DNA from: Streptomyces sp. NRRL S-87
GTDB lineage: Bacteria > Actinomycetota > Actinomycetes > Streptomycetales > Streptomycetaceae
NCBI RefSeq assembly: GCF_000719335.1
Contig: NZ_JOGB01000002.1
Coordinates: 1-64,000, forward strand
DNA: 64,000 bases
Direction: 5' to 3'
Both the position numbers and the translations under genes were made by a program. Under the pieces are notes generated by a model. That model did not search any database. It saw nothing but the letters and a program-made list of their open reading frames with translations, and was not told the origin of the DNA. Of the stretch, positions 13,823-17,991 are shown piece after piece. Every line of letters starts with the position of its first letter. Position 1 is the first letter of the stretch.

Positions 13823-14434
13823 TCAGCGGGCGTAGTACTCGACGACGAGCTGCTCGTCGCAGATGACCGGGATCTCCTTGCGGTTCGGCTCGCGGTCCAG
13901 GCGGAAGGCCAGGGCCTTCAGGTTGACCTGCAGGTAGCGCGGCGTCTCGCCCTCGCCCGCGTAGCCACCCTCACGGGCGACCTGGAACGGGTGCTTCTCG
14001 CGGCTGCGCTCGCGGACCGTCACGATGTCGTCGGGACGGACGCGGAACGACGGCTTGTCGACCTTGCCGCCGTTGACCTCGATGTGGCCGTGAACGACCA
14101 TCTGGCGGGCCTGGTAGATGGTGCGGGCGATGCCGGCACGCAGGACCAGGGCGTCCAGACGACGCTCGAGCTCGATGACCAGGGCCTCACCGGTCTTGAT
14201 CTCGGCCTTCTTGGCGCGGTCGTACGCACGGGCGAGCTGCTTCTCGCTGATGTCGTACTGGGCGCGCAGACGCTGCTTCTCGAGCAGACGGACCTTGTAG
14301 TCCGAGTTCTGCTTGCGGCCGCGGCCGTGCTCGCCCGGCGGGTAGGGGCGAGCCTCGAAGTACTTGACGGCCTTCGGCGTCAGGGCGATGCCGAGGGCGC
14401 GAGACTTCTTGACCTTGGGTCGCGACTGGTTCAC
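13823..14434 (-). CDS. rpsD: Ribosomal protein S4
   Basis: A 203-residue primary-binding protein of the 30S subunit that nucleates 16S 5'-domain assembly. It has the N-terminal basic arm, the conserved YPPGEHG segment, and the S4 RNA-binding domain ([31 protein letters not shown]). The zinc-binding Cys residues of some S4 paralogues are absent, so this is the C-minus form. The start is GTG at 14434 with GGAGGT nine bases upstream. It is a stand-alone gene outside the main ribosomal operons. Its leader contains the iron box at 14457-14475, shared with the divergent DUF2470 gene. Confidence 0.97.
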
Positions 14435-14456: not shown

Positions 14457-14475
14457 TTAGGTGAGCCTTACCTTA
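14457..14475. promoter_or_regulatory. Predicted iron box (DmdR1/IdeR operator)
   Basis: The 19-bp imperfect palindrome TTAGGTGAGCCTTACCTTA. Read on the minus strand it differs from the actinobacterial iron-box consensus TTAGGTTAGGCTCACCTAA at two positions. DmdR1/IdeR bind such boxes with Fe2+ and repress iron-acquisition genes. It lies 15 bases before the DUF2470 ATG, where repression of that gene would be expected, and 22 bases upstream of the rpsD start, so rpsD could also be affected. Confidence 0.75.
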
Positions 14476-14490
14476 TTCGAGGAGGACGTA

Positions 14491-15420
14491 ATGTCTCGAC
14501 CACATGGGATCCCCCTGCCCAGTGCGCATCGCAGTTCGGACGAGAACACATCCACGTCCGCTTGCGACGACGGTAGACAGAGTCAGCCGCGTCCCAGGGA
14601 AGGCGCTCGACAGCTCACCGGAGCCGAGCGCGTACGAACCCTCGTTGAGTCCAACGCCTCAGTATCCCTCACTCTGCCCGGTGCTCGTGACGCGCAGGGC
14701 GGCCACGAGCTGGAAGAACTCGGGACAGGGGTGCCGGTCGCGCGGACCGTCACCCCGGACGGGGACGTGATTCTCCTTGTGTCGGGGGAATCCGCGGCAG
14801 CCAGGGCAGCCGCTCACGCCCAGGACGACGACCTCACCGCCGTGATCGAGATCACGGATGTGGCGCCGGTGTCCGTGCCCCATCGTATCCGGGGCCGCGC
14901 GTGGCTCGCCGGGTGGCTCACCCCGGTGCGCGGGGACGACCGCGTGCCGGCCGCCCTGCTGCTCGCCGAGCGGCATCCCGTCGGCGAGCTGCTGGGCCTC
15001 GGGGAGGCGCTGACGGAGGAGCCGCTGCCGGGCCGGTACGGGCGTCCGGCCTGGCAGATGCTGCGCCTGGAGGTCGGCGAGATCGGGGTCGACGACCTGT
15101 GGGGGGCCGAGTCGGTGCACCCCGACGAGCTCGCCGCGGCGGAGCCGGATCCGCTGGCCGCGCACGAGGCGGAGCTGCTCCAGCACCTTGCCGCGTGCCA
15201 CGGCGAGCAGGTGCGGGAGCTGTGCGCGCTGCTCGGCGCGCGGGAGGCGGCGGCCGCGGGGCAGCGGGTCGTACCGCTGGCGCTGGACCGCTTCGGGCTG
15301 CGGGTCCGGTTCGCCGGGGAGCGGCCGTTCGACGCGCGGTTCGACTTCGTCGAGCCGGTGCGGGACGTGTGCGGGCTGCGGCGCGCGATGCGGTCGCTGT
15401 TCGAGGCCGCCGGGCACTGA
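14491..15420 (+). CDS. DUF2470 protein, HugZ-like split barrel (haem/iron related)
   Basis: A 309-residue protein. After a disordered start of about 40 residues there is a split-barrel region like pyridoxamine-phosphate-oxidase/HugZ proteins (ARTVTPDGDVILLVSGES; IEITDVAPVSVPHRIRGRAW). A C-terminal DUF2470 domain follows (LLQHLAACHGEQV through the RFDFVEPVRDVCGLRRAM end). In HugZ the same domain pair binds and breaks down haem. Iron release from haem is therefore a reasonable inference, strengthened by the iron box at 14457-14475. The ATG at 14491 has an excellent GAGGAGG site. It ends 20 bases from the convergent YbaY-like gene. Confidence 0.82.
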   Translation: MSRPHGIPLPSAHRSSDENTSTSACDDGRQSQPRPREGARQLTGAERVRTLVESNASVSLTLPGARDAQGGHELEELGTGVPVARTVTPDGDVILLVSGESAAARAAAHAQDDDLTAVIEITDVAPVSVPHRIRGRAWLAGWLTPVRGDDRVPAALLLAERHPVGELLGLGEALTEEPLPGRYGRPAWQMLRLEVGEIGVDDLWGAESVHPDELAAAEPDPLAAHEAELLQHLAACHGEQVRELCALLGAREAAAAGQRVVPLALDRFGLRVRFAGERPFDARFDFVEPVRDVCGLRRAMRSLFEAAGH

Positions 15421-15440: not shown

Positions 15441-15782
15441 TCACACCCTGGTCACCGGCGCGAGCAGTTCCTGCCCGGCCCCCGGGACGACGGGGACGGA
15501 CCGGGTGTTGATCATGTCGTCGGCCTCCACGGTGCCTGCGCCCGCCATGTCGACGTGGACGCGCAGTCCGTAGGAGGCGGCGGGATCGAGGTCGGGCAGC
15601 AGCACCCGGAAGGGGATGCGGCCGCCCGGCGACAGCGGGACGTCGGTCTGGACCTGGGCGCCCACCACGATGGAGGCCGCGTCGGCCAGGGAGACGTCCC
15701 GGACCTCGACCAGGAGGCGGGCCGCCACCTGTGCCGGCGCGTCCGGGGGGAGGGCCACGAAGCCCTGCACGGTGTCGCTCAC
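15441..15782 (-). CDS. YbaY-like beta-sandwich protein in ATP-grasp operon
   Basis: A 113-residue protein with the features of the YbaY/YscW family: LLVEVRDVSLADAASIVVG near residue 24, IPFRVLLPDLDP in the middle, and a closing INTRSVPVVP strand. Family members are usually lipoproteins, but this one lacks a signal peptide or lipobox, so it should be cytosolic. The GTG at 15782 overlaps the ATP-grasp stop by four bases, making it the third gene of a tightly coupled operon. A scaffold or substrate-binding role is only inferred from context. Confidence 0.75.
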   Translation of the reverse strand: MSDTVQGFVALPPDAPAQVAARLLVEVRDVSLADAASIVVGAQVQTDVPLSPGGRIPFRVLLPDLDPAASYGLRVHVDMAGAGTVEADDMINTRSVPVVPGAGQELLAPVTRV

Positions 15783-16774
15783 GCCGCCGCCCTGCCCGCC
15801 ACCGGCCGCCGCGACCGTCCGGCCGGGTCCCGGTCATCGATCCGGGACAGCAGCGCGGCCACCTCGGCAGTGATCTGCAGTCCCGTCCGCTCTTCCACGA
15901 ACAGCCACTGTCCGGCGGGATTCACCTCGAAGAACACGTACTCCCCGTCGGGGCGCCTGCGCAGGTCGACGGCCCCGTACACCAGACCGAGGCTGCGGAC
16001 GAGGTGCAGCAGCCTACGGGTGAGGTCTTGGGGAAGGGTCACCGGCCGTACGACCGCCTCGCCGACGACCATCCGCATGTCGACCGGGTAGCGCGTGGCG
16101 GAGGCGTCGATCTCGGCGGCGAAGACGCGGTCGCCGACCACGGTCACCCGCAGGTCCGCGCCCGGCACGAACTCCTGGAAGATCACCGGGGCGTAGCGGA
16201 CGGAGTCCAGCTGCCCGAGGTACTCCCTGCGGACGAGCCGGGTCTCCCGCCAGGCGTCGTCGGCCGCTGCGGCGAAGGCCTTGAAGACGGTCCGTCCGAC
16301 GCCCACCTCGTCGATGAACCGGCGCGCCCGCTCCGGCTCGTTCGTGACGAGGGTGCGCGGCAGCGTCAGCCCGACGCGGCGGGCGACCTCCCACTGGTAC
16401 GGCTTGTGGTGGGCGGCCCCGTCCAGTGCCGGGGGGTTGACCCACGTGCAGTCGAGCGCGTGGAACAGGCCGTGCAGGGCCTGGCCCGTCTCGACGGCGG
16501 CGAAGTTCTGGTCCCGTGCCGTGCCCAGCGCGCGGTCGACGGTGAACGGACGCACCCGCCGCCACCAGGCGACCCGGCAGCGGTCGAGCCGGATGCGCCC
16601 GGTGGGCGGTGTCAGGGTGTGGGCGGGCTCCCCGCCCGCGGCGTAGTCGAGGGTGATCGCGCCGCGGGCGGGGAAGTCGGCCAGGTCGACGCGGACCACC
16701 TCGCGGCCGGCCGACTCCAGCCGGCGGATGACCGCGAGGGCGTGGTCCTCGTCGTAGGAGACGACGAGGATCAT
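15779..16774 (-). CDS. Graspetide-type (MvdD/RimK-like) ATP-grasp ligase
   Basis: A 331-residue ATP-grasp enzyme. The MvdD-clade hallmark WWRR is at 70-73, followed by the WVNPP segment at 111-115, the AHHKPYQ stretch, an ATP-binding Lys near 165, QEFVPGADLRV at 200-210, Asp270 in YGAVDL and the Mg-binding FFEVNPAGQW at 281-290. Relatives form ester or amide crosslinks between Asp/Glu and Ser/Thr/Lys side chains in graspetide (microviridin-type) precursors. The ATG at 16774 overlaps the stop of the astacin gene and its stop overlaps the YbaY gene. No short precursor gene is visible nearby; the Lys/Asp/Pro-rich tail of the protease encoded upstream is the obvious candidate substrate. Confidence 0.85.
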   Translation of the reverse strand: MILVVSYDEDHALAVIRRLESAGREVVRVDLADFPARGAITLDYAAGGEPAHTLTPPTGRIRLDRCRVAWWRRVRPFTVDRALGTARDQNFAAVETGQALHGLFHALDCTWVNPPALDGAAHHKPYQWEVARRVGLTLPRTLVTNEPERARRFIDEVGVGRTVFKAFAAAADDAWRETRLVRREYLGQLDSVRYAPVIFQEFVPGADLRVTVVGDRVFAAEIDASATRYPVDMRMVVGEAVVRPVTLPQDLTRRLLHLVRSLGLVYGAVDLRRRPDGEYVFFEVNPAGQWLFVEERTGLQITAEVAALLSRIDDRDPAGRSRRPVAGRAAA

Positions 16775-17991
16775 CGCGGCCCGCTGCCGGCGGCGAGCAG
16801 CGATCCCAGTTGGGACACGAGACTGTTGTGGTTGGTCACGGCGGTCGTGAGGCCCTGCTGGAGCACCCCGACGAGCTCGGTGAGCCGGCGCACCTGCTCC
16901 GCCAGCCCGTCGCCCTGGGCAGCGGGCACGGTGGGCGCCTGGTGCGGGGTGGCCAGGACGAACGGTGTGCCGTTCGTGCCGACCGCGGGCGTCAACCCGT
17001 CCAGGAGGGGGTTCTTGTCGGTGATCGGGTCCTTGATCGGGTCCTTGCCCGCGCCCTTCATGTCGAAGATCGGGTCCTTGAGGGGTTCCTTGAAGGTGGC
17101 CGGGGCCGGGTACATCGCGTGGACGCCGTCGATGTCGCCCTGGGACAGAGCGGTGCGCTGGCCCATGACCACGCCGGGGGGCAGGGGATGCAGCGCGACG
17201 ATGGTCGGCTTGGTGCCGTCGACGGCGAACGCCCTGGGCGGGTAGTGCATGATCGAGCCGTAGTCGTACGACCCCAGGTCGTCGCCGTCGGCGATGTGCT
17301 GCAGGAAGTTGTGCTGCATGGACGGGTCGACGTTCGAGAACACGATCTTGACGAACTGGTCCCGGTCCTCACGGCTCTGCTCGTGCCAGAGCCCCACCGT
17401 GTGGCCGATCTCGTGGATGGCGTTGCCGGCCGAGCAGTTGGGGCCCAGGGTGATGAGCTGGCGGCCGCCGCGGCGCCCGACGTTCGACGAGCAGCCGTCA
17501 CCCGGGACGAAGGCCACGAAGTCCAGGTGGGAGGAGGAGCGCGGGACGAACCGGATCCGGGTGTGTGCCTCCCAGTGCGCGATCGCGTCCGTGACGCGCG
17601 ACGGGTCGGGGAGGGCGGGGTCGATCTCGAAGGGGACGGTGGCGTTCGGCCAGCGGAACTGCTGGCCGGGGATCCCGACCGATTGGACCACGGGGCCGGC
17701 GTCCGACGAGGCCGCGTCCTGCAGGTCCTTCACACGGCCGAGCACGATGTCGCCTTCGAACACGGCCATCCCGCCCACGTCGGCGTACGGGAGGCCCTTG
17801 GCCGTGAAGGTCTCGCCGGACACCAGCGCGACGCCGGCGATGGGGCCGGACCGGTGTTCGCCTGAGCCGGTCACCCCGTTCTTCCCGGCAGCGGGGCGCG
17901 TGCGGGCGGCGGTCTTCTCCGTCGCCTTCCCGCTCTGGCCTGCGGCGGCCTTCTTCATGCGGCGGTTGGAGTCGGCAGGGGTCGGGCTCAT
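16771..17991 (-). CDS. Astacin-like (M12) metalloprotease with K/D/P-repeat tail
   Basis: A 406-residue protein. The zinc site HEIGHTVGLWH is at 193-203 with catalytic Glu194, and the Met-turn SIMHY is at 246-250; both define astacins. Residues 1-50 are basic and disordered, without signal peptide, which is odd for a normally secreted family. After the protease fold ends (about 296) comes a segment at 300-331 with four Lys-(Glu/Asp)-Pro units and two further Lys and Asp/Pro positions. A predicted coiled coil at about 362-400 follows. It is the first gene of the operon with the ATP-grasp ligase (4-base overlap). GAGGTG precedes the ATG at 17991. The tail is a plausible ligase target. Confidence 0.87.
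   Translation of the reverse strand: MSPTPADSNRRMKKAAAGQSGKATEKTAARTRPAAGKNGVTGSGEHRSGPIAGVALVSGETFTAKGLPYADVGGMAVFEGDIVLGRVKDLQDAASSDAGPVVQSVGIPGQQFRWPNATVPFEIDPALPDPSRVTDAIAHWEAHTRIRFVPRSSSHLDFVAFVPGDGCSSNVGRRGGRQLITLGPNCSAGNAIHEIGHTVGLWHEQSREDRDQFVKIVFSNVDPSMQHNFLQHIADGDDLGSYDYGSIMHYPPRAFAVDGTKPTIVALHPLPPGVVMGQRTALSQGDIDGVHAMYPAPATFKEPLKDPIFDMKGAGKDPIKDPITDKNPLLDGLTPAVGTNGTPFVLATPHQAPTVPAAQGDGLAEQVRRLTELVGVLQQGLTTAVTNHNSLVSQLGSLLAAGSGPR

Follow-up and report, generated by a model that had tools for sequence, protein, structure and literature searches.

Branches 7 and 8 of the graspetide ligases described by Makarova et al. (2022) are accompanied by peptidases and, as reported there, by no predictable precursor, which was proposed to be encoded elsewhere (PMC8939145). 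Published descriptions of other systems offer two precedents: corallotide carries KxxxD lactams (PMC13097080), and a graspetide leader that was shifted C-terminal of its core still functions (PMC13003496).

We analysed a 64,000-nucleotide stretch of Streptomyces sp. NRRL S-87 (contig NZ_JOGB01000002.1, positions 1 to 64,000; hereafter the window), in which a locus at positions 15441-17991 encodes a ligase, a peptidase and a YscW homologue with no precursor gene, the composition of branch 7. An earlier note on this DNA had taken the system to be possibly undescribed. It is not wholly so, because branch 7 is a published description of this ligase-peptidase-YscW neighbourhood, given there without a precursor (PMC8939145); the proposal that a tail of the peptidase serves as the ligase substrate stands. 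Sequence comparisons make it very probable that the graspetide-type ligase staples the C-terminal tail of the protease whose gene immediately precedes its own, docking on a PFVLATP motif and joining Lys to Asp at i+5. Such a substrate, carried on the enzyme itself, probably answers the question that those authors raised about their two branches.

Three overlapping genes and the astacin tail

All features of the locus lie on the minus strand. Its three open reading frames overlap pairwise by 4 bases (16771-16774 and 15779-15782), as the earlier note had seen, from which it concluded that the genes act together. The genes appear to form two pairs rather than one trio, because across loci the YscW-like gene tracks the astacin, whether or not a ligase is there. 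This gene (15441..15782, GTG start) encodes a YscW/YbaY-like protein of 113 aa that matches PF09619 with 24.2 bits (cut-off 22.6). As lower bounds, it is present at 32 of 37 chosen ligase-linked astacin loci, at 24 of 29 chosen ligase-less ones and at none of six non-astacin loci with tails, and its product looks like a companion of the astacin, not of the ligase. Membership in a known anti-phage defence system was rejected, as PADLOC gave no match for any of the three proteins.

The protease (406 aa, 16771..17991) is an astacin of family M12A, with a PF01400 domain (165 bits) and a zinc site HEIGHTVGLWH (residues 193-203, 17383..17415) that fits HExxHxxGxxH and whose residues H193, E194, H197 and H203 are invariant in alignment A1. 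Its score with the LegP-like NCBIfam model NF045530, a 244-position model that stops before the tail, is 297.3 bits against a cut-off of 300, so that it falls short of a LegP equivalog. None of 120 homologues reaches the hydropathy threshold used for a Sec-type N-terminus, in agreement with the earlier description of a leaderless enzyme.

Profiles and the predicted structure identify the adjacent protein (331 aa, 15779..16774) as an MvdD-type ATP-grasp ligase, predicted to act as a tail-crosslinking macrocyclase. Both the MvdD pre-ATP-grasp (PF21068) and RimK (PF08443) Pfam models score above cut-off, and the best NCBIfam match is TIGR04187, at 234 bits and below its cut-off of 350; a ligase of the MvdC/MvdD/TIGR04187 kind with a pre-ATP-grasp domain is what a graspetide system calls for. 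The model of the ligase (pLDDT 90.9) is matched best in the PDB by MdnC with its precursor MdnA. The graspetide motifs named in the earlier note are indeed in place: WWRR at residues 70-73 (16556..16567), invariant in alignment A2, and FFEVNPAGQW at residues 281-290 (15905..15934), of which F281, E283, N285 and G288 are invariant in the same alignment. A second MvdD-like ligase in the genome (C107) was set aside as a separate, divergent enzyme encoded away from the tail.

The tail of the astacin contains a repeat zone, TFKEPLKDPIFDMKGAGKDPIKDPITDKNPLLDG (residues 299-332, 16996..17097), which has counterparts in homologous tails and is the predicted core with six K(i)-D(i+5) pairs; the Lys/Asp/Pro segment had earlier been placed at residues 300-331. 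Three KDP triplets in the 48-residue zone were reached in 5 of 20000 shuffles. All six tail lysines have Asp at i+5, whereas an acid at i+5 of all six occurred in 0 of 200000 shuffles, and in 1 of 100000 when any single offset from 1 to 11 was allowed. The repeat pattern is not due to chance.

A motif overlooked in the earlier note, PFVLATPHQAP (residues 343-353, 16933..16965), is conserved in homologues as PFVLATPHQ between the repeats and a C-terminal helix. The helix spans residues 362-399 by coordinates (16795..16908) and 362-401 in the AlphaFold model, where residues 313-363 have pLDDT below 50; only its appearance suggests a coiled coil. The PF motif resembles graspetide leader motifs of the P-hydrophobic-hydrophobic type, yet lies C-terminal of the core, unlike those of graspetide precursors in the published descriptions compared. 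It is conserved and tied to the ligase, for which it is the predicted recognition element.

The spacing seen in the window extends to homologous tails. An acid is found at +5 for 95% of 165 lysines in Streptomyces and 98% of 938 lysines in other astacins, and in three Lys-poor tails it is found at i+5 of 47-63% of Thr, whereas 16 control tails show no peak at +5. The tails thus have the hallmark of a graspetide core, Lys, Ser or Thr with Asp or Glu at fixed, often repeated spacing. An acid also directly follows Lys (+1) in 72% of cases in Streptomyces and 97% in other astacins, so the pairing is not unique.

Tail, ligase and cassette across bacteria

Among 76 deduplicated astacin loci, a tail rich in Lys and acids is present at 44 of the 45 that have a ligase gene beside them and at 1 of the 31 that have none (47 of 48 and 1 of 32 before deduplication). 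These derive from the best 80 of 326 loci, ranked by how closely they match the full-length window protein with its tail, and tailed proteins may be over-represented because of this ranking. The undeduplicated count omits two copies of the window locus (L001, L002) and six loci truncated by contig ends (L008, L040, L056, L059, L061, L071), and L003 and L010 have no astacin row; deduplication further drops the copies or near copies L029, L024, L025 and L082, and some near relatives remain. Pattern matching finds the PF motif at 39 of the 45 loci with a ligase and at 1 of the 31 without. Before deduplication, 6 of 48 ligase-linked loci escape the pattern; two of these, L048 and L072, carry near variants.

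Supported branches of the astacin tree provide only three independent contrasts. For tail and ligase, all three agree in nearly every one of 200 pairings (sign test, 0.25); the average for the PF motif is 1.6 concordant contrasts of 3. In a nested Streptomyces (L021) the ligase is absent and most of the repeat is gone, and further astacins without a tail have no ligase either. Several loci are less regular. L119/L258 have a ligase inside the tail clade and no Lys-type PF tail within 18 kb, in a screen blind to Thr-type tails; L120, at the base of this clade, and L121 are each preceded by an ORF of ~160 aa whose end resembles a normal precursor core. One tail (P0006) retains a single Lys, which has Asp at +5, even though its contig, to judge solely by equal length, seems to be the one that carries a ligase (P0125); another tail (P0016) has no Lys.

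No conserved short precursor-like ORF was found in the flanks of 22 homologous loci, a chosen subset of which 13 offered the full 4 kb on both sides. This agrees with the earlier note, which had reported no small precursor gene and had named, as a finding against its proposal, homologous operons with a conserved short precursor gene in place of a conserved tail. In the same-strand flanks, the ORFs common to at least three of these loci comprise the YscW-like gene and one cluster of short ORFs (L055, L073, L078), which was rejected as a precursor, since it is antisense to a YscW-like gene in L078. Clustering of neighbouring ORFs of at least 90 aa yielded, by eye, mostly ORFs overlapping the three genes. 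The dedicated short precursor gene with an N-terminal leader that is typical of graspetide systems was not found at these loci.

A cassette of Lys/Thr-Asp/Glu repeats, a PF(V/I)L(A/S)TP motif and a C-terminal segment is also found on M43 proteases, tyrosinases, subtilases and trypsin-like proteases, and Pfam confirms the family for representatives of all four. By hand count, the 120 listed of 201 bearers include 71 M43 enzymes, 22 tyrosinases, 10 trypsin-like proteases, 8 astacins, 4 subtilases, one PF25819 protein and 4 with no named family. The tyrosinases show that the system is not specific to proteases, which corrects the earlier note. The pair of tail and ligase is seen again with unrelated enzymes of several bacterial phyla, with the PF motif kept after the repeats across families. 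Among the non-astacin bearers, the genomic neighbourhoods read were those of M43 enzymes and V8-like proteases, and there ligase genes lie directly 3′ of tail-bearing M43 enzymes (L118, L225, L248) and of V8-like proteases (L168, L169). The L169 protein, from Cellulomonas, has a Thr/Asp tail, for which base-labile ester rings are predicted. One bearer (L181) is a free repeat protein. KFRDDP tails occur on an M43 protein of Miltoncostaea, for instance, and also on the astacin L043, whose ligase, in a tree built on a chosen subset of rows, clusters with the ligases of two M43 enzymes that have this tail (98).

On plasmids, the sole M43 match covering the tail has a ligase beside it, and of the 12 records that match the ligase at 1e-30, none is among the nine whose M43 match ends at residue 320 or earlier. 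None of 47 plasmid records with tyrosinase matches covers 80% of the tailed query. Tyrosinases matched in 8 of 400 Chloroflexota genomes, and the three loci read have neither a Lys/acid tail nor a ligase within the stretches covered; among viral contigs there was one distant ligase and no match to the tyrosinase. No ligase was thus seen next to a tailed tyrosinase in these searches. Tail, motif, ligase, co-occurrence, spacing rule and cassette reuse on unrelated enzymes are direct observations.

Proposed stapling of the tail and competing explanations

Co-occurrence, cassette reuse, rigid spacing and the lack of a conserved short precursor support the earlier suggestion that the tail is the probable ligase substrate, and from them we infer crosslinks and their pairing. 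The ligase would dock on the PFVLATP motif of the tail, activate Asp side chains with ATP and join each to the Lys side chain five residues earlier. Up to six lactams are predicted (K301-D306, K305-D310, K312-D317, K316-D321, K320-D325 and K326-D331), with a loss of 18 Da for each and up to 108 Da for all six. The product would be an enzyme whose tail is chemically stapled and ends with a helical segment.

A different role for the neighbourhood follows from the hypothesis published for branches 7 and 8, in which the protease cuts other cell proteins and the ligase crosslinks the resulting peptides (PMC8939145), leaving the tail as a mere linker. Proteases are the commonest partners among the loci examined, which speaks for this reading, but the tyrosinases and the free repeat protein among the bearers, the rigid spacing from Lys or Thr to acid, and the shared lack of tail and ligase in L021 and the other tail-less astacins make it very improbable. 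Still harder to credit is a RimK-like ligase that adds amino acids to acidic tail residues and forms no rings: the enzyme has a RimK-type ATP-grasp domain and RimK is a more distant fold match, but the RimK-family score is 49 bits against 234 for TIGR04187, the best structural match is MdnC, and the tails hold Lys or Thr besides acids, at fixed spacing.

The crosslinked tail might instead be a precursor on an oversized enzyme carrier, released as a natural product; where the carrier is a protease, it could do the cutting. Cleavage next to Asp is within the reach of astacins and would suit such release. Multi-core repeats are also described in plesiocin and corallotide (PMC13097080). We consider this reading improbable, as tyrosinases could not free their own tails and the PF motif persists after the repeats across families. 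Fungal and plant tyrosinases have C-terminal latency domains and the original microviridin reportedly inhibits tyrosinase, both of which would fit a stapled tail that holds its own enzyme latent until removed. Inhibition of serine proteases by microviridins and plesiocin (PMC13097080) points the same way. However, a tight, site-specific inhibitor is unlikely because one KFRDD tail type occurs on at least five unrelated enzyme families, and we regard tethered inhibition as decidedly improbable.

If the tail is stapled as proposed, its role can be inferred only tentatively. The likeliest is that of a rigid stalk, resistant to proteases, on which an enzyme without a classical signal peptide is held or displayed; a tag for export or anchoring is a more doubtful suggestion. 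On balance, the sequences lead us to favour a general form of bacterial protein stapling, in which ligases recruited by a C-terminal PF(V/I)L(A/S)TP motif would form Lys/Thr-Asp/Glu bonds in the tails of finished enzymes. This would span M12A, M43, S1, S8 and tyrosinase families, and the modification would stiffen, anchor or export the enzymes instead of yielding a peptide natural product.

Comparison with known graspetide systems

The window ligase resembles the microviridin ligases MdnC and MdnB in fold and sequence, whereas microviridins derive from a short precursor with PFFARFL in its leader (PMC8939145). Graspetide group 32 of Carter et al. (2026) is similar, by description, in the diverse families of its neighbouring proteases, but these were suggested to act in maturation or resistance (PMC13097080). 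Closer in chemistry is corallotide (group 15), as described, with a long substrate whose KxxxD repeats form Lys-Asp isopeptide bonds and a TIGR04187 ligase; it differs in having a dedicated precursor with a predicted N-terminal helical domain, later hydroxylation, restriction to Corallococcus and no attached enzyme (PMC13097080).

The match in gene content is with branch 7, which combines an MvdD-like ligase, peptidases of unrelated families and a YscW homologue, and with branch 8, which has the same kind of neighbourhood with a truncated ATP-grasp partner (PMC8939145). Matched by description, they differ in where the precursor is sought: elsewhere in the published proposal, in the enzyme's own tail here. 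The tail thus offers a concrete, testable substrate for two ligase branches published without an identifiable one, with exact K(i)-D(i+5) bonds and mass shifts predicted. If the proposal is true, graspetide chemistry extends from small natural products to the post-translational modification of whole enzymes. It would also supply a natural C-terminal recognition motif, of a kind only built artificially in the published work compared: fuscimiditide with a repositioned leader likewise has its recognition sequence, with the key motif RPFG, C-terminal of the core, but that construct was engineered and its C-terminal leader called unnatural by its authors (PMC13003496), whereas here the order appears to be nature's own.

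The operon, its occurrence and the search for a precursor

Three genes on the minus strand of the window encode an astacin protease of 406 amino acids (16771-17991), an MvdD-type ATP-grasp ligase of 331 (15779-16774) and a YscW/YbaY-like protein of 113 (15441-15782), and each neighboring pair of open reading frames (ORFs) overlaps by four bases, as the earlier note had claimed. A plus-strand gene for a DUF2470 protein (PF10615; window 14461-15420) is convergent with this operon, and a minus-strand gene judged by eye to be ribosomal protein S4-like lies at window 13823-14434.

The system is sporadic within Streptomyces. A protease match at an E value of 0.001 is present in seven of 150 genomes, one being very weak, and the ligase adjoins the protease in four of these seven. 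The closest protease among the matches listed, from Streptomyces sp. NPDC093225, is 95% identical to that of the window. Two Streptomyces loci (L013 and L020) are decaying copies, with the ligase split or frame-shifted in both and the tail frame-shifted in L020. The window's own genome also carries a second, divergent MvdD-like ligase (L137; G000:C107:1604-2476).

The note had reported no small precursor gene, which agrees with our comparison of 1017 ORFs of 28-200 amino acids that flank 22 diverse loci on the same strand (13 loci have the full 4 kb on each side, nine have less). No conserved precursor-like short ORF was found in these flanks, and thus no case among the 22 loci of a separate short precursor conserved where the tail is not. 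Only the YscW-like gene and one ORF of loci L055, L073 and L078 are common to at least three loci; the latter is antisense to a YscW-like gene in L078, is not precursor-like and was rejected.

The YscW-like gene lies beside the astacin in 32 of 37 chosen ligase-linked loci and 24 of 29 chosen ligase-less loci, whereas six non-astacin tail loci, some of which have short flanks, yielded none. All these counts are minimum values, as the search missed the one in L078. This distribution with and without the ligase argues that its product pairs with the protease rather than with the ligase. The proposed three-gene unit therefore holds as regards the overlaps, but the YscW-like gene accompanies the astacin irrespective of the ligase.

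Tails of ligase-linked astacins

Astacin loci were gathered with two catalytic-domain patterns (the 80 of 326 most similar to the complete window protein, together with genus hits); with six loci cut by contig ends set aside, 48 have a ligase and 32 do not. Four or more lysines close before an acid occur in the tails of 47 of the 48 ligase-linked astacins versus one of the 32 ligase-less astacins, and the PF(V/I)L(A/S)TP-type pattern (PF motif) in 42 versus one, although species sampling is uneven and Fisher tests on these counts ignore relatedness. Deduplication gives 44/45 versus 1/31 for the Lys/acid tail, upholding the claim that it goes with the ligase, and 39/45 versus 1/31 for the PF pattern. 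Judged by eye, the ligase-less astacins either carry lectin-like or other repeats at their C-terminal end or are nearly tailless.

On the astacin tree the ligase label switches at least nine times, with three switches forced by well-supported branches. Across three independent supported contrasts, a number that cannot reach significance, the Lys/acid tail is concordant in nearly all pairings, while for the PF motif an average of 1.6 of three agree and none disagree. Streptomyces malachitofuscus (L021), which is nested among ligase-bearing Streptomyces, has little of the repeat left and no ligase within 13 kb.

Among 120 homologues listed of 4195, the catalytic domain is followed by 0 to 14 K-(D/E)-x units, the typical tail unit being T-x-K-E-x-x-K-D-P-I-x-D, and in 116 (by pattern) by a PFVLA-like motif after the repeats and then a C-terminal segment. 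Streptomyces proteins have few K-(D/E)-x units, and the count is zero in homologues P0006, P0016 and P0021. P0006 seems to retain a ligase though its tail has a single Lys, which has Asp at +5.

Residues 299-332 of the window protease contain six lysines, each with Asp exactly at +5, and none of 200000 shuffles reached six of six with an acid there. This spacing rule is general: the share of lysines with an acid at +5 is 95% for Streptomyces tails (165 lysines) and 98% for tails of other astacins (938 lysines), and 16 tails of ligase-less astacins show no +5 acid peak. Because most of these lysines also have an acid at +1 (72% and 97%, respectively), K(i)-D(i+5) pairing is a prediction; the window gives its clearest case, in which +5 fits all six lysines and +1 fits four.

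A tail cassette on unrelated enzymes

The tail of a single M43 metalloprotease, used as query, retrieved 201 proteins. The 120 listed comprise 71 M43 enzymes, 22 tyrosinases, ten trypsin-like proteases, eight astacins, four subtilases, one PF25819 protein and four without a class, as hand-counted from precomputed Pfam assignments, which were confirmed for representatives of the M43, tyrosinase, subtilase and trypsin-like groups. The motif pattern is present in 117 of the 120, and all 37 cassettes inspected combine KFRDD-like repeats with PF(V/I)(L/M)(A/S)TPHHS or a close form, Thr partly replacing Lys in the repeats of P0347. The cassette is modular and, since tyrosinase is not a peptidase, is not bound to proteolysis.

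The ligase lies directly 3′ of a tailed M43 enzyme in L118 (Actinomycetota), L225 (Planctomycetota) and L248 (Burkholderia stagnalis), and of a V8-like protease in two Cellulomonas loci, L168 and L169; these findings cover readable neighborhoods, tailed tyrosinases and subtilases being known as proteins alone. Among plasmid records, the sole M43 match spanning the tail has a ligase beside it, and the twelve records with a ligase match at 1e-30 include none of the nine whose M43 match ends at or before residue 320. In an acidobacterial locus (L181 / L247, genome G672), the gene directly before the ligase encodes a free 376-residue protein built of (DPKFDPKQ)n repeats with PFILTTNWPY at its end, a candidate stand-alone staple substrate.

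Spacing is fixed at K+3/+4 and T+5/+6 in KFRDD tails and at K+4 in KKLRDD/KQLxDPP tails. The tails of L248, L168 and L169 are Lys-poor (4, 1 and 1 over the 130 residues preceding the motif), and Thr takes the place of Lys: 47-63% of the Thr residues have an acid at +5. Such an exchange with the acid retained is what ester/amide graspetide chemistry would predict.

Enzymes of the tail-bearing kinds usually act outside cells, and the threshold for a Sec-type signal is reached by none of 120 astacins and four of 120 KFRDD enzymes. For both reasons, the putative stapled tail is more plausible as a stalk, anchor or export tag than as a peptide antibiotic.

The ligase and known graspetide systems

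The window ligase exceeds the Pfam cut-offs for MvdD pre-ATP-grasp and RimK domains. Among NCBIfam models, TIGR04187 scores highest (234 bits, under the cut-off of 350), with the RimK family model far behind at 49 bits. WWRR, K165, R209, D270, E283 and N285 are unchanged in the alignment columns of 30 chosen relatives. The nearest fold to its AlphaFold model (pLDDT 90.9) is the microviridin macrocyclase MdnC bound to precursor, followed by AMdnB, PruB, CdnC and PsnB, with RimK behind. These domain matches, invariant residues and fold indicate that the protein is most likely an active side-chain macrocyclase.

In a tree with 42 chosen ligases beside tails (L121 left out), 41 fall in one clade (SH-aLRT 97), which also contains the unassigned rows L119 and L120; the ligase of L181 has an unsupported position outside it. 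Two M43 enzymes with KFRDDP tails have ligases that cluster (98) with the ligase of an astacin of the same tail type, L043, which argues that the ligase tracks the type of tail rather than the type of enzyme. L119 / L258 (G367, Actinomycetota) has a tail-clade ligase and no Lys-type PF tail within 18 kb. Near the clade base, in L120 and L121 (G198, G377), an upstream ORF of about 160 residues ends in TFTF(A/C)QT(R/K)SHxxSDDGxxCDSLD (L121: TFTYCQTKSHAGSDDGINCDSLD), a sequence resembling an ordinary precursor core.

Ligases with short precursors form groups apart from the tail-linked ligases. Four Streptomyces examples (L126, L127, L128 and L131) have precursors of the form M-(Q/R/K)-PF(A/T)L-(N/E)YARP ... 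TTSTAGSKTHFDD. Because several short precursors carry MQPFALNYARP, MKPLAFSFL or PFLLQFL, the PFVLATPHQAP of the tail looks like a graspetide leader motif set after the core. A graspetide leader repositioned behind the core remains functional, with RPFG as key motif, according to PMC13003496.

Nothing in the literature searched, with most subscription papers and supplements outside its scope, describes an enzyme tail as a graspetide substrate. According to PMC13097080, Lys and Asp of the repeated KxxxD motifs in corallotide are joined by isopeptide bonds, and the diverse proteases neighboring group 32 are read as serving maturation or resistance. PMC8939145 associates ligase branches 7 and 8 with peptidases of several unrelated families, and branch 7 also with YscW; precursors could not be predicted there for either branch.

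A second ligase clade (97) comprises L044, L136, L245 and L246, in which an enzyme with a Lys/Asp/Glu-type tail is followed by a truncated and then a full ATP-grasp protein. The enzymes are, in that order, an astacin, a trypsin-like protease (by eye), a protein with no Pfam match (L245 4887-6128, minus strand) and an M43 enzyme (by eye). Since the PF motif is absent from these four loci, the truncated partner may perform recognition. By description, this clade matches branch 8 of PMC8939145.
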